Shown here piece by piece: positions 3 through 21,744 of a stretch of 27,401 nt of DNA. Source of the stretch: a virus; IMG/VR virus record IMGVR_UViG_3300005253_000115, positions 1 to 27,401 of that record; one strand, written 5' to 3'. The translations under genes and the position numbers were made by a program. Position 1 is the stretch's first letter, and every line of letters begins with the position of its first letter. The notes beneath the pieces are model-generated. The model saw only the letters and a list, made by a program, of their open reading frames with translations. It searched no databases and was not told the DNA's origin.

Positions 3-3000
3 ACCGGGATGTTGGTTCTTAGACGCAAAGGAAGAATATTTATATCTGGCAATTCTGGCAAAACCTCAGCTGCAGCTATGGAAATAGGTCTTTACAAACC
101 TATATTTCTGTTTAAAAAGTATGGTATTAAGGAAACACGCTGGGTAGTTGTAAGAAACTGTTTTGATGATAAAACGGAAATATTAACAGAAAAACGTGGT
201 TGGGTGCTATTTAAAGATCTAAAAAAAGATGATAAAGTTGCTTCTAATGTAAATGGGAAAACAGAATATGTTAATCCAACATATTATTATCAAGCACCTT
301 ATAATGGCGAAATGATAGGGATAAAATCACAGAATATAGATTTATTAGTTACCCCCAACCATCATTTATGGGTTTCAAAAAGAAAAACAAGAAAAAAGAT
401 ATGGAATGATTATGAACAAATAAAAGCAGAAGATATTTATGGAATAGGTGAATTAAACAGAATGAGTTCTATTGGTAAATGGGATGGCGGTAAGAAAACA
501 TTTAAAAAGGCATATTTTGAATTTTTAGGTTTCTGGTTTGCTGAAGGGTATGCCGGAATATATAAGAGAAAAAATTCGAATGGTTATCATTATAGACTTT
601 CTGTTATTCAAAATAAACGAAAAGATATGTATGTAGAGAAGTTATTAGCGAAAAATGGTTTTAAATTCTCAATTTGCAAAAAAGCAAGCACAGGGAATGC
701 ATATAATTATTCTTTTAGTATAGAGAGCAATAGCATTAAAGAATTAATATCCGAATTATCTGGATATGGCAAAGCAAAAACAAAATATTTGCCGCATTAT
801 ATTAAAAATGCACCGGCAACATATTTAAGAGCATTTTTAAAAGGATACCAGGAAGGCGATGGAAGTTTTAAAAATGGACATCCTAATAAATGCGATATTT
901 TATTTACTGCATCAAGACAACTTGCTGATGATTTACAAGAAATAATATTTAAATCTGGCAAATGTTCTGTTATAAACTTATTAAAAACAGGAAATGATAT
1001 TCGCGGTTATACTATTACCATAAGAACAAAACATAGGTCTTATCCAATAATGCTAAAACAGCATTGGTCAAAACAAGATTATAACGGGAAAGTCTATTGT
1101 ATTGAAGTACCTTCTCATGTCATTTATGTTAGAAGAAATGGAACATGTGTATGGTCTATGCAGAGCTATATCGAATTAACTGATACAACTTTGCGTACAG
1201 TCAGGGAATGGTTCCCCGGGGCAGAATATTTTGAGAAATCGAAGTATGGAAGCAAAGTAATGTTTATTGAGCACCCGAAGTATGGCATAAGAACAGAACT
1301 GTTATTCAGATCCTGCGATAATCCAGACGATGTTAAGAAGTTTAAATCATTAGAATTAACAGGTTACTGGATAGATGAGAGTATAGAAGTAGATGAAAAT
1401 ATAAAGAAGATGTTAAAAAACAGATTGGGCAGGTTTCCAAAGAAATGTCCAGTCAGGTTTGGCATTGAAACAACGAATCCCCCAGATGTAGAACACCCTA
1501 CATATTCACAATTCCAATGGAATGTTCCTCCACCCGGGCCTAAACCAAAAATAGAACCGCTGGTCGGGCATTACGGGTTTTGGCAACCACCCTATGAAAA
1601 TGCAGAAAATCTAAGACCCGGTTATTACGATGATTTGAGAAATGACTACAAAGATGACCCAGACTGGGCAGATATGTATATAGATGGAAAACCAGGTATT
1701 ATTATCAAGGGTAAGCTTATTTATAACAATTATAGGAGAGATATACACGAATCAAAAAAATCGTTAGTATGGAAGGGTGGTAGGTTAATAAGGGGATGGG
1801 ATAATTCCGGGAACATACCGGCAGCTGTTGTGTTGCAGACTCCGACAGAAGAAAATCGAACCAGTTATGATTCAGTACAGGTTTTAAGGGAATTCACTAC
1901 AGACAGAGAAAATATAGAAGATTTTGCAAAAAGGGTAGTTATGGTATGTAATAGTTTATACCCAAACGCAAAATATCTTGATTTCGGGGATCCGGCCGGT
2001 GATAATCAATACAGTAAAGGGGGAGGAGGATTTACCAGCAATTCACAAATAATGCTCGAAGGGTGTGGCGTGAATGTATATCCTTCCGAACAAAACTTAA
2101 CAATGAGGATAACTTCTGTTGAAAACTTATTGAAAAGAATAGATGGGCTTTTAATCGACCCTAGTTGCGTAAGGCTATTAAATGGATTTCTCGGAGGTTA
2201 TAATTATCCAAAGATCGGTAGCACAGAATGGTATTCTGATAAACCTGCTAAAAACAGGTTTTCACATTGTCTTGTTGGGGAAACTTTAGTATCTACTCCA
2301 TTCGGCAAAAAAAGAATTGATAAAATAAAAGTAGGGAATATTGTCAATACACATAAAGGACCGAAAATAGTAACAGCAACTATGAATAGTATATCAAATC
2401 AACTGGTAAAAATTAGTATTGATGATGGAAACTCTTTGACTTGTACCAACAATCATCCCATTGCTAAAGATTATAATTGCTTTTCTCGTGCCGATGCATT
2501 ACATTATGGTAATGGCATAATAGGAGAGAAATTCTTATGGGACGACCTGCAAAACACAGAATACAAGAATTCAACGGTATTAAGTTTTATTGGAAACCTA
2601 ATGGATATTACAAAGCAGATTGGAGAAAAGATAAAGGCATTTACATGCATGTTGCTGTTTGGCAATTCTATAAAGGAGAGATTCCAAAAGGTTATCACAT
2701 ACATCACAAAAATCATAACAAGTCAGATAATAGAATTAAAAATCTCGAATTATTATCTATATCAAAACACCAATCCTATCATGGTAAAACAAGAATATTG
2801 TTCTATCCGGATGCTGTCAGAAGACACATGGAAAAAATCAGACCATTGGCAACAGCGTGGCATCGTACAGAAGAAGGACGAATATCAAGCAAGAAAGCAG
2901 CAAAGGCAATGTGGAAAAAAGCAGAGAAGGAAGATAGGAAATGCACTGTCTGCGGTAAACAATACGAAGGTATTAGAAATTTTGGAAGGAAAAATTTCTG

Positions 3001-3347
3001 TTCTTCTTCCTGCCAGCAAAAAAATCGTAGGGATTCTGGTTTGGATAATGAAGAAAGAATATGCATATATTGTAAAAAACCTTTTCAAACTTCAAAATAC
3101 TCCAAAACAACCTCATGTTCAAAATATTGTGCCCAAAAATTCCGATTCAGTAAAAGTATATGATCTAACAGTAGAAGATTCCCATACATTCTATGCAAAT
3201 GGAATATTGGTTGGCAATTGTCACGATGCTTTACAATACGCTATTGTGCGTATATTCCAAAGTATAGATGATAATGATGATGATTGGGATGAAGACGAAT
3301 ATGATATTACGAGAGATACGGGCAGGAGTAAAGTAACCGGTTATTGA
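3..3347 (+). CDS. terL: Terminase large subunit precursor with two inteins (5' partial)
   Basis: This is the ATPase and nuclease that pumps phage DNA into the capsid through the portal. Counting from the ATG at 9, Walker A (G-N-S-G-K-T) is at residues 14-19 and Walker B (W-I-D-E) at about 454-457. RNase H-like nuclease acidic residues lie in L-D-F-G-D-P-A-G at about 657-664, and the last one is in H-C-H-D-A-L-Q-Y near the C terminus. Removing inteins of 335 and 317 residues from 1112 leaves about 460, the usual TerL size, and rebuilds R-N-S-Y-I-E-L and S-H-C-H-D-A-L. The frame is open to the left edge, the ATG at 9 has no Shine-Dalgarno sequence, and Walker A sits unusually close to it, so the true start is probably outside the window. 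The stop is followed after 14 bases by the portal ATG. The identification is very secure. Confidence 0.96.
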   Translation, partial: TGMLVLRRKGRIFISGNSGKTSAAAMEIGLYKPIFLFKKYGIKETRWVVVRNCFDDKTEILTEKRGWVLFKDLKKDDKVASNVNGKTEYVNPTYYYQAPYNGEMIGIKSQNIDLLVTPNHHLWVSKRKTRKKIWNDYEQIKAEDIYGIGELNRMSSIGKWDGGKKTFKKAYFEFLGFWFAEGYAGIYKRKNSNGYHYRLSVIQNKRKDMYVEKLLAKNGFKFSICKKASTGNAYNYSFSIESNSIKELISELSGYGKAKTKYLPHYIKNAPATYLRAFLKGYQEGDGSFKNGHPNKCDILFTASRQLADDLQEIIFKSGKCSVINLLKTGNDIRGYTITIRTKHRSYPIMLKQHWSKQDYNGKVYCIEVPSHVIYVRRNGTCVWSMQSYIELTDTTLRTVREWFPGAEYFEKSKYGSKVMFIEHPKYGIRTELLFRSCDNPDDVKKFKSLELTGYWIDESIEVDENIKKMLKNRLGRFPKKCPVRFGIETTNPPDVEHPTYSQFQWNVPPPGPKPKIEPLVGHYGFWQPPYENAENLRPGYYDDLRNDYKDDPDWADMYIDGKPGIIIKGKLIYNNYRRDIHESKKSLVWKGGRLIRGWDNSGNIPAAVVLQTPTEENRTSYDSVQVLREFTTDRENIEDFAKRVVMVCNSLYPNAKYLDFGDPAGDNQYSKGGGGFTSNSQIMLEGCGVNVYPSEQNLTMRITSVENLLKRIDGLLIDPSCVRLLNGFLGGYNYPKIGSTEWYSDKPAKNRFSHCLVGETLVSTPFGKKRIDKIKVGNIVNTHKGPKIVTATMNSISNQLVKISIDDGNSLTCTNNHPIAKDYNCFSRADALHYGNGIIGEKFLWDDLQNTEYKNSTVLSFIGNLMDITKQIGEKIKAFTCMLLFGNSIKERFQKVITYITKIITSQIIELKISNYYLYQNTNPIMVKQEYCSIRMLSEDTWKKSDHWQQRGIVQKKDEYQARKQQRQCGKKQRRKIGNALSAVNNTKVLEILEGKISVLLPASKKIVGILVWIMKKEYAYIVKNLFKLQNTPKQPHVQNIVPKNSDSVKVYDLTVEDSHTFYANGILVGNCHDALQYAIVRIFQSIDDNDDDWDEDEYDITRDTGRSKVTGY
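159..1163 (+). mobile_element. Intein 1 in TerL with LAGLIDADG endonuclease
   Basis: This is a self-splicing protein element of 335 residues (51-385 of the precursor). It starts with Cys51 in C-F-D-D-K-T-E-I-L. It has a block-B T-P-N-H motif (L-L-V-T-P-N-H-H-L) and ends in the strand V-Y-C-I-E-V-P-S-H-V-I-Y-V-R-R-N-G followed by W-S-M-Q. The +1 residue is Ser386. The middle holds the two helices of a LAGLIDADG homing endonuclease, L-G-F-W-F-A-E-G-Y and F-L-K-G-Y-Q-E-G-D-G-S. The element therefore looks complete for both splicing and homing. It interrupts a conserved terminase motif that becomes V-V-R-N-S-Y-I-E-L-T-D-T-T after splicing. The last residue is Gln rather than the usual Asn, and Met precedes it in place of the common His or Gly. 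Boundaries were chosen from the intein blocks and the rebuilt host motif. Confidence 0.93.
2522..2526 (+). promoter_or_regulatory. Internal ribosome binding site for the nested HNH gene
   Basis: AGGAG lies 10 bases upstream of the ATG at 2537, inside the intein 2 coding sequence. Its presence supports separate translation of the HNH protein from the terminase message rather than a frameshift. Confidence 0.65.
2537..3163 (+). CDS. HNH homing endonuclease nested out of frame in intein 2
   Basis: This 208-residue protein is read in a different frame from the terminase-intein and lies wholly inside it. The N-terminal half is an HNH_3-type nuclease: W-Q-F-Y-K-G-E-I-P-K-G-Y-H-I-H-H-K-N followed by N-R-I-K-N-L-E-L-L. 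That arrangement supplies the paired His and Asn of the beta-beta-alpha-metal site (about residues 54-74). The C-terminal half carries two Cys pairs of zinc-ribbon type, C-T-V-C-G-K...C-S-S-S-C and C-I-Y-C-K-K...C-S-K-Y-C, probably for DNA binding. The ATG has AGGAG upstream. The likely role is to cut intein-free terminase genes and so spread the intein. Coding in two frames over more than 600 bases is unusual. Confidence 0.9.
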   Translation: MGRPAKHRIQEFNGIKFYWKPNGYYKADWRKDKGIYMHVAVWQFYKGEIPKGYHIHHKNHNKSDNRIKNLELLSISKHQSYHGKTRILFYPDAVRRHMEKIRPLATAWHRTEEGRISSKKAAKAMWKKAEKEDRKCTVCGKQYEGIRNFGRKNFCSSSCQQKNRRDSGLDNEERICIYCKKPFQTSKYSKTTSCSKYCAQKFRFSKSI

Positions 3348-11795: not shown

Positions 11796-12545
11796 ATGAA
11801 AGAAGATACAAAAATCTGTAAAAAATGTAAGATTGAAAAACCATTAAGTGAGTTTTATTTTAGAAAAGATAATAATGGTTATAGAAATGAATGTAAAATA
11901 TGTTTTATAAAAATTAGAAAAGAATATAGAGAAAAATACCTTTATAAATCAAAAGAAATAGCACATAAAAGTTATTTAAAAAGATATAAAGAAAATCCTG
12001 AAAAAATAAAAGCAGAAAGATATAATAACCTTAAAAATTGGAGAGAGAATAACCTAGAGAAAGTTCTTGCTCAAGGTAAAAAATGGAGGGAGGAAAATCC
12101 CGAAAAGTCTCGCATTAAATGCCAAAAATGTAGGGAAAAAAATCCTAAAAATTTTAAAATAAGTGCACATAAAAGTTATTTAAAAAATAGATTAAGTTCA
12201 CAATACAGGTTAAATTGTTCAATAGCGCAAGGATTACGACATTCATTAAATAAAAATAGTGGAAGTAAAAACGATAGACACTGGGAAGGTTTGGTTGGCT
12301 TTACAATTAAAGAGTTAAAGAAACACCTTGAAAAACAATTTGCCGAGGGTATGAGTTGGAAGAATTATGGTGATTGGGAAATTGACCATATCATCCCTTT
12401 ATCAGCACATAATTTTAGCGATGTAAACCACATAGATTTTAAGCGAGCTTGGAGTTTAGATAATTTACAACCAATGTGGAAAATAGAAAATTTGCAAAAA
12501 AGTAATAAACTCGAACAATCATTCCAGCCAAGTTTGGCAATATAA
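11796..12545 (+). CDS. Free-standing HNH homing endonuclease
   Basis: This 249-residue protein has an N-terminal zinc knuckle (Cys8, Cys11, Cys33, Cys36), a long Lys/Glu-rich spacer with repeated E-N-P-E-K patterns, and a C-terminal HNH domain. That domain reads W-E-I-D-H-I-I-P-L-S, then N-H-I-D-F-K-R-A-W-S-L-D-N-L-Q-P-M-W, then E-N-L-Q-K-S-N-K-L. It starts one base after the glycosyltransferase stop with little ribosome binding site and is more AT-rich than its neighbours, as expected for a mobile gene dropped between essential genes. Its last codons resemble two remnants elsewhere in the window. Confidence 0.9.
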   Translation: MKEDTKICKKCKIEKPLSEFYFRKDNNGYRNECKICFIKIRKEYREKYLYKSKEIAHKSYLKRYKENPEKIKAERYNNLKNWRENNLEKVLAQGKKWREENPEKSRIKCQKCREKNPKNFKISAHKSYLKNRLSSQYRLNCSIAQGLRHSLNKNSGSKNDRHWEGLVGFTIKELKKHLEKQFAEGMSWKNYGDWEIDHIIPLSAHNFSDVNHIDFKRAWSLDNLQPMWKIENLQKSNKLEQSFQPSLAI

Positions 12546-12557
12546 TAAGGAGGAATT

Positions 12558-13187
12558 ATGACACCTAAAAAAATTACGCTTACTGCCCTTGCCTTAGTCC
12601 GTAATGGAATATCTGTAGCTGAAACAATGTCAGGATCAGGGGATATGGCAATTACAGGTGCGTATGCTACAGATGGAGTTGGGATTTTAGATATTCCTCG
12701 CCATATAGGCATTTATGCTGCTGGCAATGAATCAGGAAAAACATTTACAGTCTATGGAACTGATCGTAACGGTGCAGTAATATCTGAATCAATCACAGGG
12801 CCGAATGCTACGACTGTAAATGGAAGTAAAAATTTTAAAACAGTTACACGGGTAGCTGTAGATGCTGCTACTGCTGGTGATGTAGAAGTAGGTACAACCA
12901 ATCAATTCGATTCCCAGATAGTTCCTGTCGACAGTTATAAGGACAATATAAGTTACAATGTTAGTCTATCATCTGATAAAGATTTAACTTATGAGTTCGA
13001 GTATACATTATCTGATATACTTGCGAGCGGGTTTGTTGAAGCTGATGCAGTATGGTTCTCTGATTTAGGGCCAAAAACTGTTAATTCTGTTTCTGGCTCA
13101 ATAACACCGTTCAGAGCATGTAGATTGGTAATAACTAATTATGTTGCTGGCACGATTACATGGAATATTGTAACGGCTAGGACTTAA
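12558..13187 (+). CDS. Beta-rich phage virion protein
   Basis: This 209-residue protein looks all-beta, rich in Thr, Val, Gly and Ser. The V-Y-G-T-D-R-N-G-A-V-I-S-E-S-I-T-G-P segment and the later F-K-T-V-T-R-V-A-V-D form a module frequently seen in structural proteins between the capsid and neck genes of podoviruses. The ATG has AGGAGG nearby. It may be a minor head or fibre component. No enzymatic motif is present. Confidence 0.7.
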   Translation: MTPKKITLTALALVRNGISVAETMSGSGDMAITGAYATDGVGILDIPRHIGIYAAGNESGKTFTVYGTDRNGAVISESITGPNATTVNGSKNFKTVTRVAVDAATAGDVEVGTTNQFDSQIVPVDSYKDNISYNVSLSSDKDLTYEFEYTLSDILASGFVEADAVWFSDLGPKTVNSVSGSITPFRACRLVITNYVAGTITWNIVTART

Positions 13188-13189
13188 TA

Positions 13190-13219
13190 ATGCCTATTCA
13201 GCCAAGTCTAGCATTATAA
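13190..13219 (+). pseudogene. Probable 3'-end scar of an HNH endonuclease gene
   Basis: The codons I-Q-P-S-L-A-L-stop (13196-13219) match the last codons F-Q-P-S-L-A-I-stop of the HNH gene ending at 12545. At DNA level 21 of 25 aligned positions agree with one gap. Nothing else of the gene remains, and no structural gene is interrupted. The match is short and therefore tentative. Confidence 0.45.
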
Positions 13220-14533: not shown

Positions 14534-15196
14534 ATGGCCGCTTATTATACGACTGCGAAAATGGTCGATTTAATAGAATTATATGTAAATAAATTCAATG
14601 ATGAACAAAAAGAAGTATTGAATGCCACCAGACCGTTAATAACTGCTTTATTAAATAGAGGGCAACTTGAAGTAGTTGGTTTGATGGATAGGCGTAATGT
14701 TGATATACTTGATGCAAAACAAACAGTAACGGTAGATGGCAGCGGTGCTTATGCTTTAGGGTCTTTGACAAGTGCTGCTTATAATGGAGCTGAGAGTGTA
14801 GATGAAGTATTTATAGTAGCAGGGAAATACTGCATATTTAAAGATTTCGATGAATATAAGGATATGGTTAATGCTGATTATACTTTCTCTGCAAATGAAC
14901 CAGTATGTTATTTCCGGGGCGAAAGTGTTTATGTAGAACCATATGTAGCTTCGACCACACAACTTACTATTTATTACATGAAAACACCGACAACTCATGT
15001 TGATGGTTCCGGTACGCCGACAGCATTTAGTCAGCCTGTATTAGAAATAATAATTGTATATACCGCTCATTTGCTTTTTGATTATTTACAAAATCCAACA
15101 TTATCAGATAAAGTTCTAAACAAAGCATATTCTTTGATGAATGTAATGAATGAAAAACAGATAGTCATAGGTGAAAAAGAGGCAGGACTTGATTAA
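14534..15196 (+). CDS. Neck or adaptor-like protein
   Basis: This 220-residue protein begins one base after the adaptor stop. The N-terminal third is helical (A-T-R-P-L-I-T-A-L-L-N-R-G-Q-L-E-V-V-G-L). A beta section containing V-Y-V-E-P-Y-V and T-I-Y-Y-M-K-T-P-T follows, then a C-terminal helix pair (I-V-Y-T-A-H-L-L-F-D-Y-L). The same layout recurs in the two proteins at 20428 and 21094, suggesting a small family of ring-forming neck proteins. Assignment is by position and architecture. Confidence 0.68.
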   Translation: MAAYYTTAKMVDLIELYVNKFNDEQKEVLNATRPLITALLNRGQLEVVGLMDRRNVDILDAKQTVTVDGSGAYALGSLTSAAYNGAESVDEVFIVAGKYCIFKDFDEYKDMVNADYTFSANEPVCYFRGESVYVEPYVASTTQLTIYYMKTPTTHVDGSGTPTAFSQPVLEIIIVYTAHLLFDYLQNPTLSDKVLNKAYSLMNVMNEKQIVIGEKEAGLD

Positions 15197-17079
15197 TGGC
15201 TAACGAATATATACATGATTTAGACGCAATAGGAGCGGTAGATGATGGTTCTTTGCTTGCAATAGAGGATACAGGCTCTCCGACTGATTTAAAGAAAGTT
15301 ACTGCTGCTACTTTCCAAGCATATTTAACAATTAATGTAGCGAGTCAGGTAACAGGTACTTTAGCAGTCACTAATGGCGGGACAGGCAATGCCACATTAA
15401 CCGCTGATAGGGTGTTATTGTCTAATTTAACTGTTCCGACTGCTGCAATTGCTGTATCAACGATTACAAGAACAGAGCTTGAAACTTTAAATAATATATC
15501 AAGCAATATACAAGACCAAATAGATGGCATACTTGACGGATGTACATTCACAGGCGATGTGGGAATAGGGGTAGCTCCTTCTGTACCTTTACATGTTGGT
15601 TCTGACTCCGATTGTTCTGTTTATTTTGATGAGGCTGTGGACGCTACCGGAGGTGTTGATTTTAGATTACGTAAAGCCAGAAATACAATGGCTAGCCCTA
15701 CTGCAGTTTTAGCAAATGATTTGCTGGGTGGGTTGTCATGGTATGGATACGATGGCAGTAGTTACGATTATGGTGCAGGAATAAGAACATTAGTATCAGC
15801 TATTGCTGCTGGTAATTTAAGTACTTCTCTTGAGTTTCGAACTGTTAGTGCTGGTTCCGCAGCAACGAATATGACACTTAATAAAGATGGTGATTTAACT
15901 ATCTTGGGTGATTTATATATAAACGGTGGCGATATAAGTGCAGGTGTAGATATAACCACGCAAGGTGTTTTGAAACTTTATGGGGATAATGCAGGCGGCG
16001 GCGGTGCTTCTTATTGGTATAACAGTGATAACGATGATGGAACTGTTGAATATTGGAAGATGATACCTACAGGCATTGGGGCTGCAAATGCAATGAATTT
16101 TGGTCCTGATACAGACCTTAATGCATTTATTTTTGGCAATGATGGTGATTTCACAATAGCTGGTGATTTAACTGGAGTGGTAGGTACATTTTCGGGTGCG
16201 GTAAGTGGAGTAGCAGGAACGTTCACAGGTAATCTTATTAGTGGCGTAGATGATACTACTCAAGGTTTACATAGGCTTTATGGTGATAATGGTGCAAATG
16301 GCGGAGCTTCTTATTGGTATAATGGGGTAACAGATCATGGCGTTGTCCAATATTGGAAATTACAACCTACAGGTATAGGCGCTGCAAACGAATTATATCT
16401 TGGTCCTGATACAGATCCCAATGCTTTTGTTTTTTCTGATGATGGGGATTTCACAATAGCTGGTGATTTAACTGCTTCCGGTGGTAATGTATTTGCAGGT
16501 GCAGATGATGTTACACGAGGATCATTATTTGCTTATGGAAACAATTCTACTCTTAATGGCCGTCTTTTTTTATTTAACAGTGCCGACAATGATACCAATG
16601 AAGAATATTACATTTTTTCTGCTGCCGGCGATAACCTCAATATAGGCCCAGAAAATTATCAAAGTGCTCTTGTTCTTAGTAGGTTGGGTGATTTAACTAT
16701 AGCGGGTGATTTTGCCTTATCAGGAACGGTCGATGGAGTTGATATAGCCGCTCGTGACCATGCTGAATCCCACACCCATGATTCGCATACTGGAACTTTA
16801 TCTGTTAATGAGGGCGGAACAGGAGTGACAAGTTTTTCTGCTGATAGAGTTTTGTTATCTAATCTAACAACACCTTCTGGTGATTTGAGAGTATCGCCAA
16901 TCACAGGTGTTGAGCTTAACTATTTAAATAATGTAAACTCTAATATAAGAACGCATATGGATAACTCGTCTGCCCATCATACTAAATATTCACCATCAGG
17001 TTCTACTACAAGTTTTGTCATAGGTATTACACAATATAATTTTACGAATGGTCTTATGACAAGTTTCCATACTGCTTAA
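15196..17079 (+). CDS. Repeat-containing tail fibre protein
   Basis: This 627-residue protein overlaps the previous stop by one base. The N terminus (Y-I-H-D-L-D-A-I-G-A-V-D-D-G-S-L-L-A-I) looks like a virion attachment region. Two exact-period 100-residue repeats begin at residues 250 and 350, each running from T-T-Q-G through Y-G-D-N, G-A-S-Y-W-Y-N, P-T-G-I-G-A-A-N and G-P-D-T-D to D-G-D-F-T-I-A-G-D-L-T. A third, shorter and diverged copy starts near 435. A separate motif, G-G-T-G...A-D-R-V-L-L-S-N-L-T, occurs near both ends. The His-rich stretch D-H-A-E-S-H-T-H-D-S-H may bind metal, as in some trimeric fibres. It is likely involved in host recognition. Confidence 0.8.
   Translation: MANEYIHDLDAIGAVDDGSLLAIEDTGSPTDLKKVTAATFQAYLTINVASQVTGTLAVTNGGTGNATLTADRVLLSNLTVPTAAIAVSTITRTELETLNNISSNIQDQIDGILDGCTFTGDVGIGVAPSVPLHVGSDSDCSVYFDEAVDATGGVDFRLRKARNTMASPTAVLANDLLGGLSWYGYDGSSYDYGAGIRTLVSAIAAGNLSTSLEFRTVSAGSAATNMTLNKDGDLTILGDLYINGGDISAGVDITTQGVLKLYGDNAGGGGASYWYNSDNDDGTVEYWKMIPTGIGAANAMNFGPDTDLNAFIFGNDGDFTIAGDLTGVVGTFSGAVSGVAGTFTGNLISGVDDTTQGLHRLYGDNGANGGASYWYNGVTDHGVVQYWKLQPTGIGAANELYLGPDTDPNAFVFSDDGDFTIAGDLTASGGNVFAGADDVTRGSLFAYGNNSTLNGRLFLFNSADNDTNEEYYIFSAAGDNLNIGPENYQSALVLSRLGDLTIAGDFALSGTVDGVDIAARDHAESHTHDSHTGTLSVNEGGTGVTSFSADRVLLSNLTTPSGDLRVSPITGVELNYLNNVNSNIRTHMDNSSAHHTKYSPSGSTTSFVIGITQYNFTNGLMTSFHTA
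15943..16713 (+). repeat. Tandem repeats inside the fibre gene
   Basis: Copy 1 is 15943-16173 and copy 2 is 16243-16473, exactly 300 bases apart. Both contain GCTTCTTATTGGTATAA and TTCACAATAGCTGGTGATTT. Copy 3, 16498-16713, is diverged and shorter. The period keeps the reading frame. Confidence 0.85.
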
Positions 17080-17317: not shown

Positions 17318-17511
17318 TGGCAATATTTGGTAATTTAAAAACTAGTCCGACAGATTTACTATTAACAGCACCAGGGACTAATTTGATTACCAATACATTA
17401 CAAGATGATGTAGCTTTTTATTTTGAGCGTATAACTATAACATATGGCAAAGATGGCGATATAGAACATGACAAATTATCTGGACGTAAACAGAATAACT
17501 TTTACGGATAA
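17317..17511 (+). CDS. Hypothetical protein (64 aa)
   Basis: This protein starts on the last base of the previous stop (TAATG). It contains T-D-L-L-L-T-A-P-G-T-N-L-I and I-T-I-T-Y-G-K-D-G-D-I, and looks mainly beta. The downstream gene begins inside its last 44 bases in another frame. It was not recognised. It could be a small structural protein, or the shortened remainder of a longer one. Confidence 0.55.
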   Translation: MAIFGNLKTSPTDLLLTAPGTNLITNTLQDDVAFYFERITITYGKDGDIEHDKLSGRKQNNFYG

Positions 17512-17746
17512 CACGGATATGCCGATTATCGATATTAGAGATTTTTCGGGTGTATATAGTAATGCTGATGTAGAGGACATACCCGAAAATATGCTTACTG
17601 AATTGAAGAATTTACGCCCTTATCATGGTAGATTAATAAAAACACATGGTTTCGGTGTTAAAATATCAGATGCGACATTAAGAATATTGGATAATTTAAT
17701 AACTTATATAAATAGTAATATTGCCAGTGATGGTAATACTGATTAA
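17468..17746 (+). CDS. Large tail protein, N-terminal part (ends at in-frame TAA)
   Basis: These 92 residues (N-R-I-T-F-T-D-N-T-D-M-P-I-I-D-I-R-D-F onward, with L-K-N-L-R-P-Y-H-G and L-I-T-Y-I-N-S-N-I) look like the opening of the 845-residue protein that follows. The TAA at 17744-17746 is in the same frame, and coding continues directly after it as I-Y-L-G-Y-Y-V. It may be a nonsense mutation, an assembly error or a genuine split. The ATG lacks a good ribosome binding site and overlaps the previous gene. Confidence 0.6.
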   Translation: MTNYLDVNRITFTDNTDMPIIDIRDFSGVYSNADVEDIPENMLTELKNLRPYHGRLIKTHGFGVKISDATLRILDNLITYINSNIASDGNTD

Positions 17747-17785
17747 ATTTATCTTGGATATTATGTAACGACCAATACAGCAACT

Positions 17786-20323
17786 ATGACCGAAACAACC
17801 ATAGCTTTCGTTGATTCTGACCCTGACACTATAACCGATAGCGGAAACGCTTTTGTTTCTAATGGGTTTTTGGCCGGCGAAATTATTAATGTATCTGGAA
17901 GTACAAATAATGATGGTGATTACAGAGTGCAAACGGTTGCTGTTGGTACTTTAACACTTGCTGGTGATGATGCTTTAACTACCGAAGGTGCAAGTGCAAG
18001 TGTAACTATTTCGGTTGTGACATATAGCGTTACATTATTTGGATATAAAACAACCGGTTCTGCGTGGGATTTTCTTGGTGATTTAACCGATTTTGTCATT
18101 GATGGCACTTATTATCATAAAAACGCCAAGAATCCGACATTTACATATAATGAATCATTGAGGTTGCTTCCTAGTAATGTAAGTAAAGCTGATGGCACAA
18201 ATGAATCGAAAGGTATATGGGTGGGATATATTAATAGGTCTTTGTTTGACGGTCTCTATACTCCTACTGCAAAATTCTATGATTATGATGTAACTCCAAC
18301 AAAGCCAGTCTTTGAACCATTTACTACGCTTGAATATGCTTATACAGGGAGCGGTAGTGCTGATGCCGATAATTATTGGTATAAATATTCTTATGTTTAT
18401 GATGGGAACCAAGAGAGTTTATTATCGGATACTGTTTACCATTGGGATGTAAGTGGTGTTGATAAATTTCTACAAATAGCATTATTGTTACGATCACCAA
18501 CAATAACACCCAATAGCAGAATTACTGGATTAAAAGTTTATAGAGCAACAGCAATAGGTAGCACATATGAATTATTAACTTTTGTGGATTTATTAAGACC
18601 TGCATCTGCTGTTCCCACTGAAACAACTGGTGTTTACAATGCTGACGATAGAGTATGTATACCCGCATTAACGACTTATAATTTTAACGCTGGTTTTACT
18701 TATAAAATAAGTTTTAATACTGGAGCCAATAAATATGAGATTACCAATCCAGGAGCAGGTACGGGTTCTACAGTTTTCGTATTTACTGCACATACAACAG
18801 CAAGTGATGATTGGGATGTTGATTGGGAATTATATCACAGCGATGATGCGTATGCGGCTTCAGTAGCATCAAGCACGGATGGAGGCTCATACTGGGGAAC
18901 AAATACAATAGTTTCCGATACAGTTCATACTGAGGATTCATTAGTAGGTGGCGTTATTTTCACTTTCGCAGGTCAAAGGGTTATAAAAAATAATATTAAT
19001 AAAGCTATTCGTGTTTATGACGCAGTTGCAGGAGTTAATAATTCGTATTACTCTATAGCAATACCATCGGAAGGATTATATTTATCAAGAGGTGCAACAA
19101 CTACGTATACTTATATTTATGATACTCTGCAAGTAACGCCTTCTGGTGAACATCCTCTGATTGGTGAAGTTTCTATAAAGGTTAATGGAAGATTTGCTGA
19201 AATGATAGGCGGTAGATTGTGGCAAGCAAACATCGTTCTAGACCCTGGCAATAAAGGCGAAATACATGAAGATTGGGCTACTTATTCAGAACTTTACCAG
19301 CCTGACGTCAATCCTGTTGAAAATGCCAAATTTGTACCAGACCGAGAAGGTGGAGAAATAACAGGAATCGCACAAGTGTTTGGGAATCCGGTATTCTTAA
19401 AGAAACAGGCAATTATAAGACTTGATGTTACAATAGCACCCGGAACGCCATCTACTTGGAAAACAATAGAATCGCCTCATAATATAGGTAACATAGCTCC
19501 TAATGGAAGTATAACTGTATTAGGTGATTTATATATTGTTTATTATGATGGAATTTATAGAATTAAACCAAGTAATTATGCAGAATCAGATAATACGCCT
19601 ACTGAAAATTTGAGAATATCTGAGCCTATTACTGATACTTTTGACAATATGACAAATGCCGAAAAAGTATTAGTTAAATGCGAGTATGACCAAAACCTTA
19701 GTGAAATACTTTATATATTTCCGCTATCGGCAGGTGACGAAATGTGGGCATATAATATTAATTCAGAGCAATGGAGAGAGATAGAAACAGGACAAACATT
19801 TAACGAAAATTCGATGTTCGCACTTGACGAAGTTGCTGATGTTATGGCATACGATTCTGCTGACCAGAAAGTTTATTCTCTTGCTGTTGAGGAAGACGTT
19901 GATATAGAATTTCATACGAAAACATTCCCAATATCTTTTAAACGGTCTCAATTAGTTAAATATCTTACAGTACGTTACAAATCAGATGAAACGATAACAT
20001 TAGATGTTTATTCTGATATAGTATTTAGTGAAGGTGATTTGGTAGATGCAAAAACGTATAGAATACATGCTAGTACGGGTGGTCTTGATATGACGAATAT
20101 CGGAGCCGCAAATAATAATGTAGGTACTGATTTTACTTGTGCTGGCGGTGTAACCCCAACATCTTGGGGGACTGGCTCAATAGTTCAAACCAGTCCAATA
20201 GCAACAAAAACTTTACCTGTGCATCATGAAGCGCTGGGTTCGCGAGTTCTATCTGAAATTCTCAACGAGTTGAAAAATGAACAAAATCTGAACATATTGA
20301 TTTTAAGCGTTGTTGGGCGTTAA
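17786..20323 (+). CDS. Large tail protein, main part
   Basis: These 845 residues share the frame of the segment ending at 17746; the ATG at 17786 has no ribosome binding site, so one gene of about 950 residues is more likely. A beta module (T-I-T-D-S-G-N-A-F-V-S-N-G-F, then V-S-G-S-T-N-N-D-G-D-Y-R-V) comes first. A tail-protein core follows: Y-Y-H-K-N-A-K-N-P, R-L-L-P-S-N-V-S-K-A-D-G-T-N, W-V-G-Y-I-N-R, L-K-V-Y-R-A-T, R-L-W-Q-A-N-I-V-L-D-P-G, Y-D-G-I-Y-R-I. This resembles large stabilising or tube-like proteins of podoviruses that sit below the adaptor. The last ten or so codons are read from DNA that encodes part of an HNH gene in another frame, so the native C terminus has probably been replaced. 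Confidence 0.72.
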   Translation: MTETTIAFVDSDPDTITDSGNAFVSNGFLAGEIINVSGSTNNDGDYRVQTVAVGTLTLAGDDALTTEGASASVTISVVTYSVTLFGYKTTGSAWDFLGDLTDFVIDGTYYHKNAKNPTFTYNESLRLLPSNVSKADGTNESKGIWVGYINRSLFDGLYTPTAKFYDYDVTPTKPVFEPFTTLEYAYTGSGSADADNYWYKYSYVYDGNQESLLSDTVYHWDVSGVDKFLQIALLLRSPTITPNSRITGLKVYRATAIGSTYELLTFVDLLRPASAVPTETTGVYNADDRVCIPALTTYNFNAGFTYKISFNTGANKYEITNPGAGTGSTVFVFTAHTTASDDWDVDWELYHSDDAYAASVASSTDGGSYWGTNTIVSDTVHTEDSLVGGVIFTFAGQRVIKNNINKAIRVYDAVAGVNNSYYSIAIPSEGLYLSRGATTTYTYIYDTLQVTPSGEHPLIGEVSIKVNGRFAEMIGGRLWQANIVLDPGNKGEIHEDWATYSELYQPDVNPVENAKFVPDREGGEITGIAQVFGNPVFLKKQAIIRLDVTIAPGTPSTWKTIESPHNIGNIAPNGSITVLGDLYIVYYDGIYRIKPSNYAESDNTPTENLRISEPITDTFDNMTNAEKVLVKCEYDQNLSEILYIFPLSAGDEMWAYNINSEQWREIETGQTFNENSMFALDEVADVMAYDSADQKVYSLAVEEDVDIEFHTKTFPISFKRSQLVKYLTVRYKSDETITLDVYSDIVFSEGDLVDAKTYRIHASTGGLDMTNIGAANNNVGTDFTCAGGVTPTSWGTGSIVQTSPIATKTLPVHHEALGSRVLSEILNELKNEQNLNILILSVVGR

Positions 20324-20409
20324 CCAATTTCCAACCAATGTGGGCTAAAGAAAATATGAAGAAAAGCAACAAATTAATAAATGACTTTCAGTTAAGTGTG
20401 TCAATATAA
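20293..20409 (+). pseudogene. HNH endonuclease gene remnant (3' end)
   Basis: In a frame different from the upstream tail gene, 38 codons plus a stop align without gaps to the C terminus of the HNH endonuclease ending at 12545, with 24 of 38 residues identical. Key motifs are H-I-D-F-K-R-C-W-A-L-T-N-F-Q-P-M-W and E-N-M-K-K-S-N-K-L. Upstream the frame closes at TGA (20278-20280), and the catalytic D-H is missing. The first 31 bases overlap the end of the tail gene. It is a decayed homing endonuclease gene. Confidence 0.88.
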
Positions 20410-20427
20410 AATAGAAGGAGATAAATT

Positions 20428-21081
20428 ATGGCTGCAGGTGACATAAGTGACGGAATGGTTGCGAGATTAGGAATAAGACTTGAAGATGAAGAGGAAAACA
20501 CATATGTAGAAGCAATGAAATTAACAGCTTTGAATTCAGCACAACTATATGTTGCGAGAATAATAAATAAAGCATATATATCAGAACTTGAAGTATTGGA
20601 TACTGCAAGAGCACAAACAGCTAATGCTCTTGCGTATTCAGCACTTGACGGGGGGTCAAGTACATTGCTTGGCAATAGTGATGATTATATTATTTCTGTG
20701 CAGGATAATTCATCTAGCAAATATTTATCAAAAACAACAATTGAAGAATTAAAAGCGTTAGAAAATTCAGACATTGCTGGTGGTGCTACAAATATGTTGT
20801 GGTATGCTTTTGACGAAAAGGTAAACACAATAACTGGTGGTGGAGCAACTGATAGTATTATTGTTGTTTTTTTCGAAACACCGGCTACAATGACAACAAG
20901 CGTTGATCCCGTATTAGGTAAAGGATTGTATGACCTCATTGTAACACTGGCAGAAGCCGAATTATGGACACAGAGCGAAGAATTGCAACGTCATGTTGTA
21001 GCGTGGGAAAGCGCGATGCGCCAGATTAAAATATTGAATAATAAATATACGCCTCCAGTTGAAGTCGGACCAGGCAGATAA
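20428..21081 (+). CDS. Neck/adaptor-like protein, paralogue A
   Basis: This 217-residue protein opens M-A-A-G-D-I-S-D-G-M-V-A-R-L-G-I-R. It has an N-terminal helical part with a variable central beta section, then T-S-V-D-P-V-L-G-K-G-L-Y-D-L-I and A-E-A-E-L-W near the C terminus and I-L-N-N-K-Y at the end. The neighbouring gene repeats this plan. The layout also resembles the protein at 14534. AAGGAG gives a strong start. It may form a neck or tail ring; the exact partner cannot be seen. Confidence 0.7.
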   Translation: MAAGDISDGMVARLGIRLEDEEENTYVEAMKLTALNSAQLYVARIINKAYISELEVLDTARAQTANALAYSALDGGSSTLLGNSDDYIISVQDNSSSKYLSKTTIEELKALENSDIAGGATNMLWYAFDEKVNTITGGGATDSIIVVFFETPATMTTSVDPVLGKGLYDLIVTLAEAELWTQSEELQRHVVAWESAMRQIKILNNKYTPPVEVGPGR

Positions 21082-21093
21082 AGGAGATAAATT

Positions 21094-21744
21094 ATGGCTG
21101 CAGGAGATATTACAGATGCATTGGTAGATAAGTTGCAGATTCGTATGGAAAATCCTGAGGGTGATAAGTTCACCGATACTATGTGCATTAAAGCTTTAGA
21201 TTATTCTCACGTTACCGTGGCTCAATTATTGCGACCGGAATATTTGGCTGAATTTCAGATAGCCGATACAGCGAAAACAATGTCATCGTTCAAATTAACA
21301 ATAGCTACACTTACGAATACGCCCTTTAATTATAATGAGGGTATTATAATGGTAAAAGACGATAATTCTGGAGAGTATTTGCAGCGTGTACATCCCGGAA
21401 GATTGCGTAGATATGAAAATACTTTGCTTGCTGCCGGAGCAACGAATAAAGTTTATTGGATGCTTGCTGGATCGATAAGAGTTTCTGTTGGCGGTAGCGC
21501 AACTGACAATATATCAGTTTATTATATTAGAATACCATCTGAGTTAAGTACTGATGTTGATCCATTGTTAAATTCTTTCTTCCACAATATAATGTTAAAT
21601 TTTGCGGAAGCGCAACTTTGGGCTACAAACAAGAGTTTAGAAAGAAGGAAAGTAAAACTTGAAGAAGCATACGCTCAGATAGAGATATTGAACAGTAAGT
21701 ATACTGTGCCTCTGGGAATTGGCGTAACTGACAGAAATAGGTAG
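21094..21744 (+). CDS. Neck/adaptor-like protein, paralogue B
   Basis: This 216-residue protein is the tandem relative of the preceding one. It starts M-A-A-G-D-I-T-D-A-L-V-D-K-L-Q-I-R, carries A-G-A-T-N-K-V-Y-W-M and I-S-V-Y-Y-I-R-I-P-S-E-L-S-T-D-V-D-P, and ends A-E-A-Q-L-W...I-L-N-S-K-Y. The bases around the start (AAGGAGATAAATTATGGCTG) are identical to those of its neighbour. The pair probably arose by gene duplication and divergence and may build a mixed ring. Confidence 0.7.
   Translation: MAAGDITDALVDKLQIRMENPEGDKFTDTMCIKALDYSHVTVAQLLRPEYLAEFQIADTAKTMSSFKLTIATLTNTPFNYNEGIIMVKDDNSGEYLQRVHPGRLRRYENTLLAAGATNKVYWMLAGSIRVSVGGSATDNISVYYIRIPSELSTDVDPLLNSFFHNIMLNFAEAQLWATNKSLERRKVKLEEAYAQIEILNSKYTVPLGIGVTDRNR

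Follow-up and report, generated by a model that had tools for sequence, protein, structure and literature searches.

We call the whole stretch of DNA that was analysed, a virus record of 27,401 bases, the window. Between its tail gene and the following adaptor-like gene we find the remains of an HNH gene, into which a tail reading frame runs. Going by the sequences compared here, it is likely that a free-standing HNH gene has decayed at this place beside a tail gene that was separately and recently broken, belongs to a minor variant or is partly mis-assembled, and that no new C terminus has evolved. We describe the tail allele in these three ways because an early nonsense codon joins the late frameshift. 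The overall picture looks like ordinary gene decay and not like an invented new protein end. The tail, HNH and adaptor-like features located below all lie on the + strand.

The HNH remnant

The intact HNH gene of the window, an endonuclease-VII-like gene at 11796-12545, starts 1 base past the upstream stop codon, and its product matches the PHROG family phrog_1035 over residues 5-244 (E 3.5e-20). A second stretch at 20293-20409, which translates as HIDFKRCWALTNFQPMWAKENMKKSNKLINDFQLSVSI*, pairs gap-free with the final 38 codons and the stop codon of this reading frame. The match, first noted in a preliminary description of this DNA, was reproduced exactly, with 24 of 38 residues identical (25 of 39 including the stop) and 82 of 117 bases. 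When 11796-12545 was masked and 82 HNH-family proteins from IMG/VR were compared with the window by tblastn, the top matches fell on 20293-20409 (best E 4e-13), while the first row elsewhere among the matches listed had an E-value of 4e-4. One of the 82 queries, taken from the start of L007, carried a translation in the wrong frame and contributes nothing. The chance that this resemblance is accidental is practically nil; it is refuted both by the gap-free identity ending in the same stop codon and by the E-value against the masked window, and we found no point in its favour. The tblastn homology extends about one codon upstream of 20293, and the 3' end of the lost gene accordingly covers 20290-20409 (39 codons and the stop).

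Directly upstream, and in a different frame, the 3' end is joined at 20290 to a 14-base piece, ATGAACAAAATCTG (20277-20290), which is preceded by AAA and begins 3 bases past the old stop codon of the tail gene. Read as ATG AAC AAA ATC TG, it gives an M-N-K-I-C start that fits the start pattern of the HNH family, M...K-[IVL]-C. This pattern is seen in 33 of 76 HNH relatives that start with ATG, compared with 7 of the 1024 ATGs of the window, a count that includes the HNH starts themselves. Judging from this motif over 14 bases, the piece probably represents the first codons of the lost HNH gene. The remnant would then be two-ended, with a demonstrated 3' end and a presumed 5' end.

The 3' piece is homologous to the HNH family and collinear with it to the stop codon. 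The catalytic core D-H-I-I-P, which is present in the full-length copies P0001 and P0004, is absent from 20277-20409; of the family phrog_1035 (Endonuclease VII / HNH), the remnant retains just what follows D-H-I-I-P, with no catalytic motif. We read it as a remnant of an HNH gene that would encode no working nuclease. A free-standing HNH gene would once have occupied this place, its ATG three bases past the tail stop and the adaptor-like gene behind it. A single internal deletion, perhaps via the short word TCTG, would have taken nearly the whole of it, leaving about 14 bases of the 5' end joined to the last 39 codons.

The junction in related viruses

Several IMG/VR sequences can be compared with the window at this place. 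A near-identical contig of 14,327 bases (L001) reaches window position 20231. Two others, L003 and L008, show 62-75% identity to the window in the tail and adaptor-like proteins, and five loci (L092-L096) stand at about 40% identity; these five represent three distinct sequences, with the same tail protein end in L093, L094 and L095. The site is empty in L003 and L008, where the ribosome site and then the adaptor-like gene come directly after the tail gene. In the window, the ribosome-binding-site region of the adaptor-like gene (20415-20427) is like that of both relatives and is repeated before 21094.

None of seven related loci (five distinct sequences, with the L003 contig entered as L091) has HNH DNA at the tail/adaptor junction. 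An otherwise conserved junction is empty in the relatives and carries the remnant in the window, and since none of the seven loci has HNH DNA there, it is most simply explained as an insertion in the lineage of the window. The history proposed earlier, an insertion followed by an internal deletion, is supported, the insertion by the absence of HNH DNA from this junction in all five distinct relatives. A search for relatives with an intact HNH gene at this junction, which had been suggested along with it, turned up none, and because of this we only infer that the gene was formerly of full length.

We also looked for relatives of the tail protein more widely. When the tail proteins encoded by the window and by L003 were compared by tblastn with 50,697 phage records, no match appeared; two scans of genome contigs found no relative, and an exact 23-base search of viral contigs for the old tail end gave no match.

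The end of the tail protein

The tail protein of L003 ends in LPVHDEAHNETIYIGRWVKEFKLRFSTS and that of L008 in LPVHPEAYNETVYIGRWVKEFYLQFTTT. The window agrees with these two relatives through LPVHHEA and thereafter reads LGSRVLSEILNELKNEQNLNILILSVVGR, which amounts to 29 new conceptual C-terminal codons (20234-20320) with a stop at 20321-20323. At the point of divergence (20233/20234), 26 bases that are present in L003 and L008 are missing between GAAGCG and CTGGGTT, and the reading frame is shifted; in L008, about 2 shared bases (CG) lie at both ends of the missing stretch. MAFFT alignments of the DNA placed this gap poorly, and its position was settled by a reading-frame test. The reliable alignment of the C terminus comprises the two relatives L003 and L008.

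The old tail end is still there. In frame +1, the bases 20235-20273 read WVREFYLKFSTS*, the former C terminus with its stop codon. Against the end of the L008 protein this reading has a BLOSUM62 score of 53, against 11 and 8 for the remaining frames; none of 20,000 shuffles reached 53 (maximum 35), and the next-best place in the window scores 29. Had the 26 bases been kept, the tail protein would finish at the stop codon 20271-20273, ahead of any HNH residue. Because the 26 bases of tail DNA are lost before the HNH DNA begins, we attribute the frame shift to a deletion of tail-gene bases that lies upstream of the HNH DNA and is separate from the HNH event. A ribosome would pass the former stop codon, translate the former tail end in the wrong frame and halt at a chance TAA in the HNH remnant, the 3' HNH DNA contributing just the last ten codons. 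We infer the order of these events and their biological consequence.

The preliminary description had made the HNH insertion and deletion itself the cause of the rewritten tail protein end. If the new C terminus belonged to a working tail protein, selfish-gene DNA would have become part of a virion protein, which is rare. It is true that the reading frame 17786-20323 overlaps the HNH match in another frame and ends in NILILSVVGR, that these ten conceptual codons lie in HNH DNA, and that the 816 residues upstream of the new end include the conserved body of the protein. Furthermore, the last ten residues are shared with none of the tail relatives, a comparison that had been set beforehand as a possible refutation. 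On the other hand, it is the separate tail deletion that brings these codons into the reading frame. The frame has already shifted where the HNH DNA starts, and the old end and its stop survive upstream in another frame. Moreover, 19 of the 29 new residues fall outside the 3' HNH match (about four of the 29 lie in the probable 5' piece), the lost end is identical between L003 and L008 at 15 of 21 positions, and the same gene carries a nonsense codon. We consider a rewriting by the HNH event improbable. A functional HNH-made C terminus is unlikely in itself, and the second lesion, the TAA described below, makes it less likely still.

Potentially, the tail gene could be rescued by a programmed +1 frameshift near 20234 or by an intron around the HNH DNA, and HNH genes are generally known to reside often in introns. 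However, no X-XXY-YYZ heptamer was seen by eye around 20219-20240, nothing in the window attains the gathering score of an Rfam family, and coding sequence has been lost (26 bases are absent) and not interrupted. Such a rescue is very improbable. A group I or group II intron carrying the HNH gene was rejected, with no Rfam match at the gathering threshold in the window.

Condition of the tail gene

Compared with L003 (3384-5984) and L008 (1065-3686), the tail gene of the window would extend from 17468 to 20273; both relatives start the gene at the position corresponding to 17468. The window gene is disrupted twice, by an in-frame TAA at 17744-17746, which is a serine codon in L001, and by the frame shift at 20233/20234. 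The 845-codon reading frame that had been described as the tail gene (17786-20323) begins at the first ATG downstream of this TAA, and 17786 is probably not the true start. In L001 the tail frame is open from the start to 20231. The window gene also carries an inserted domain of about 76 residues that is missing in L003 and L008.

The comparison with L003 gives dN 0.19 and dS 1.57, and that with L008 dN 0.29 and dS 2.54 (saturated); these values indicate that the gene was under purifying selection. The 845-codon protein received no family assignment beyond a weak match to a PHROG head protein (phrog_1236, E 4e-4). Structure predictions were unusable, with a mean pLDDT of 30.2 for the L003 tail protein and 29.6 for the window reading frame, and neither the tail profile nor the adaptor profile retrieved anything meaningful from the PDB. 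A nozzle or another tail part is an unproven candidate role.

The window is the one contig that shows the 26-base deletion and the TAA. Since L001 stops at 20231, three bases short of the deletion junction, no second sequence spans it. Maybe the two lesions are errors of assembly or consensus, in which case the tail gene of the actual phage would be whole, with the HNH remnant behind it. Only 15 of 12,436 positions distinguish L001 from the window: ten fall in one stretch of a repeat and one in the second copy of that repeat, and the others are an N, the TAA and two neighbouring bases of the HNH gene. The differences outside the repeat include stops in each contig's own genes, L001 ends 3 bases from the junction, and it looks mixed between repeat units at 16099-16138. 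All this would fit such errors. Against them, clean deletions like this one of 26 bases, with short shared ends, are frequent among natural mutations, and stop-making substitutions also occur in real decaying populations. We regard assembly error as rather unlikely.

The end of L001 near the junction may also reflect a variable site, or it may be chance. The C terminus of the tail protein could vary in the phage population, with a short deletion switching between the ancestral end and the 29-residue, partly HNH-derived end and both alleles persisting; the place where L001 ends would then mark the branch between alleles. We give this only a slim chance.

Comparison with known systems

The decay of an HNH gene as we reconstruct it has parallels. 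In the Xanthomonas phages Xop411, Xp10 and OP1, free-standing HNH endonuclease genes decay after spreading (PMC2248197). As far as the part of that paper available to us goes, the two cases are alike in having several free-standing copies per phage at sites that differ among relatives, in the reduction of some copies to small C-terminal pieces, and in decay by insertions, point deletions and frameshifts (PMC2248197). They differ in the decaying family, which is HNN-AP2 in the Xanthomonas phages and the endonuclease-VII-like phrog_1035, with no AP2 match, here. A neighbouring gene that reads into a remnant is found here, whereas none is described for the Xanthomonas phages in the same part of the paper (PMC2248197).

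In ICP1 and other systems, homing endonuclease genes lie beside essential phage genes (PMC10448857). According to the available part of this source, HNH genes there, as here, adjoin structural genes and vary between relatives, and one copy is inactivated by a frameshift, which we count as a further likeness (PMC10448857). In contrast to those systems, ours holds an HNH fragment, the change in the neighbouring gene is a separate deletion, and homing is putative. By analogy with these sources, the gain and decay of the HNH gene in the window appear to follow the pattern seen in the Xanthomonas phages and in HNH genes beside essential genes. A literature search found no paper on the present case, which does not prove that there is none.

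The case offers a worked example of HNH loss, with an insertion just past a stop codon, a collapse to two ends and, elsewhere, a trace of 30 bases (13190-13219). It also illustrates that a fused-looking C terminus is easily mistaken for an innovation when the neighbouring gene is merely frameshifted.

Other HNH copies and further features of the window

The very short second trace at 13190-13219 consists of ATGCCTATT and CAGCCAAGTCTAGCATTATAA and reads M-P-I-Q-P-S-L-A-L-stop, so that the family's final codons, QPSLAL-stop, come nearly straight after an ATG. It begins 2 bases past the stop of 12558-13187. The three HNH starts or traces of the window sit 1, 2 and 3 bases past the preceding stop codon. 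A pattern for the HNH end matches twice in the window against 0.03 matches expected; as it was built from the two places matched and a copy in L007, this is a check of rarity and no independent discovery.

At other gene junctions, the related contig L007 (3300035698_010148) carries three HNH copies, and one of these is truncated at its 5' end. Together with the trace at 13190-13219, this copy illustrates HNH decay in graded steps and speaks for our main reading. The copy at 1-634 lacks about the first 80 residues, and an upstream frame ending in ...KKKHEFML-stop enters it in another frame; the contig starts there. This is possibly a second case of a neighbouring frame reading into an HNH remnant. 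Two adjacent base differences in the L001 copy of 11796-12545 (window 11894-11895) create two stops at HNH codons 33-34, and the HNH copy of L011 also contains stops, which make the L011 sequence short.

The gene after the remnant (20428-21081) belongs to an SU10-adaptor-like family. It lies next to its paralogue at 21094-21744, and the start regions of the two are near-identical; the distant relatives L093-L095 seem to have further adaptor-like copies. An SU10-like podophage tail module is a tentative candidate here: four of six adaptor-like proteins match SU10_adaptor (best E 1.2e-5), and there is a match to SU10_portal (E 3.7e-5) that is below the curated cut-off.

At the beginning of the window, the reading frame 9-3347 encodes a terminase large subunit of 1112 codons. 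Residues 49-342 match Hint/LAGLIDADG and residues 754-1070 match intein-splicing/Hint, and the reading frame seems to carry two inteins. Finally, a repeat with a spacing of 300 bases (15943-16174 and 16243-16474) lies within the reading frame 15196-17079. Over 16099-16138 the first copy in L001 resembles the second copy, which suggests an exchange of units or mixing during assembly.
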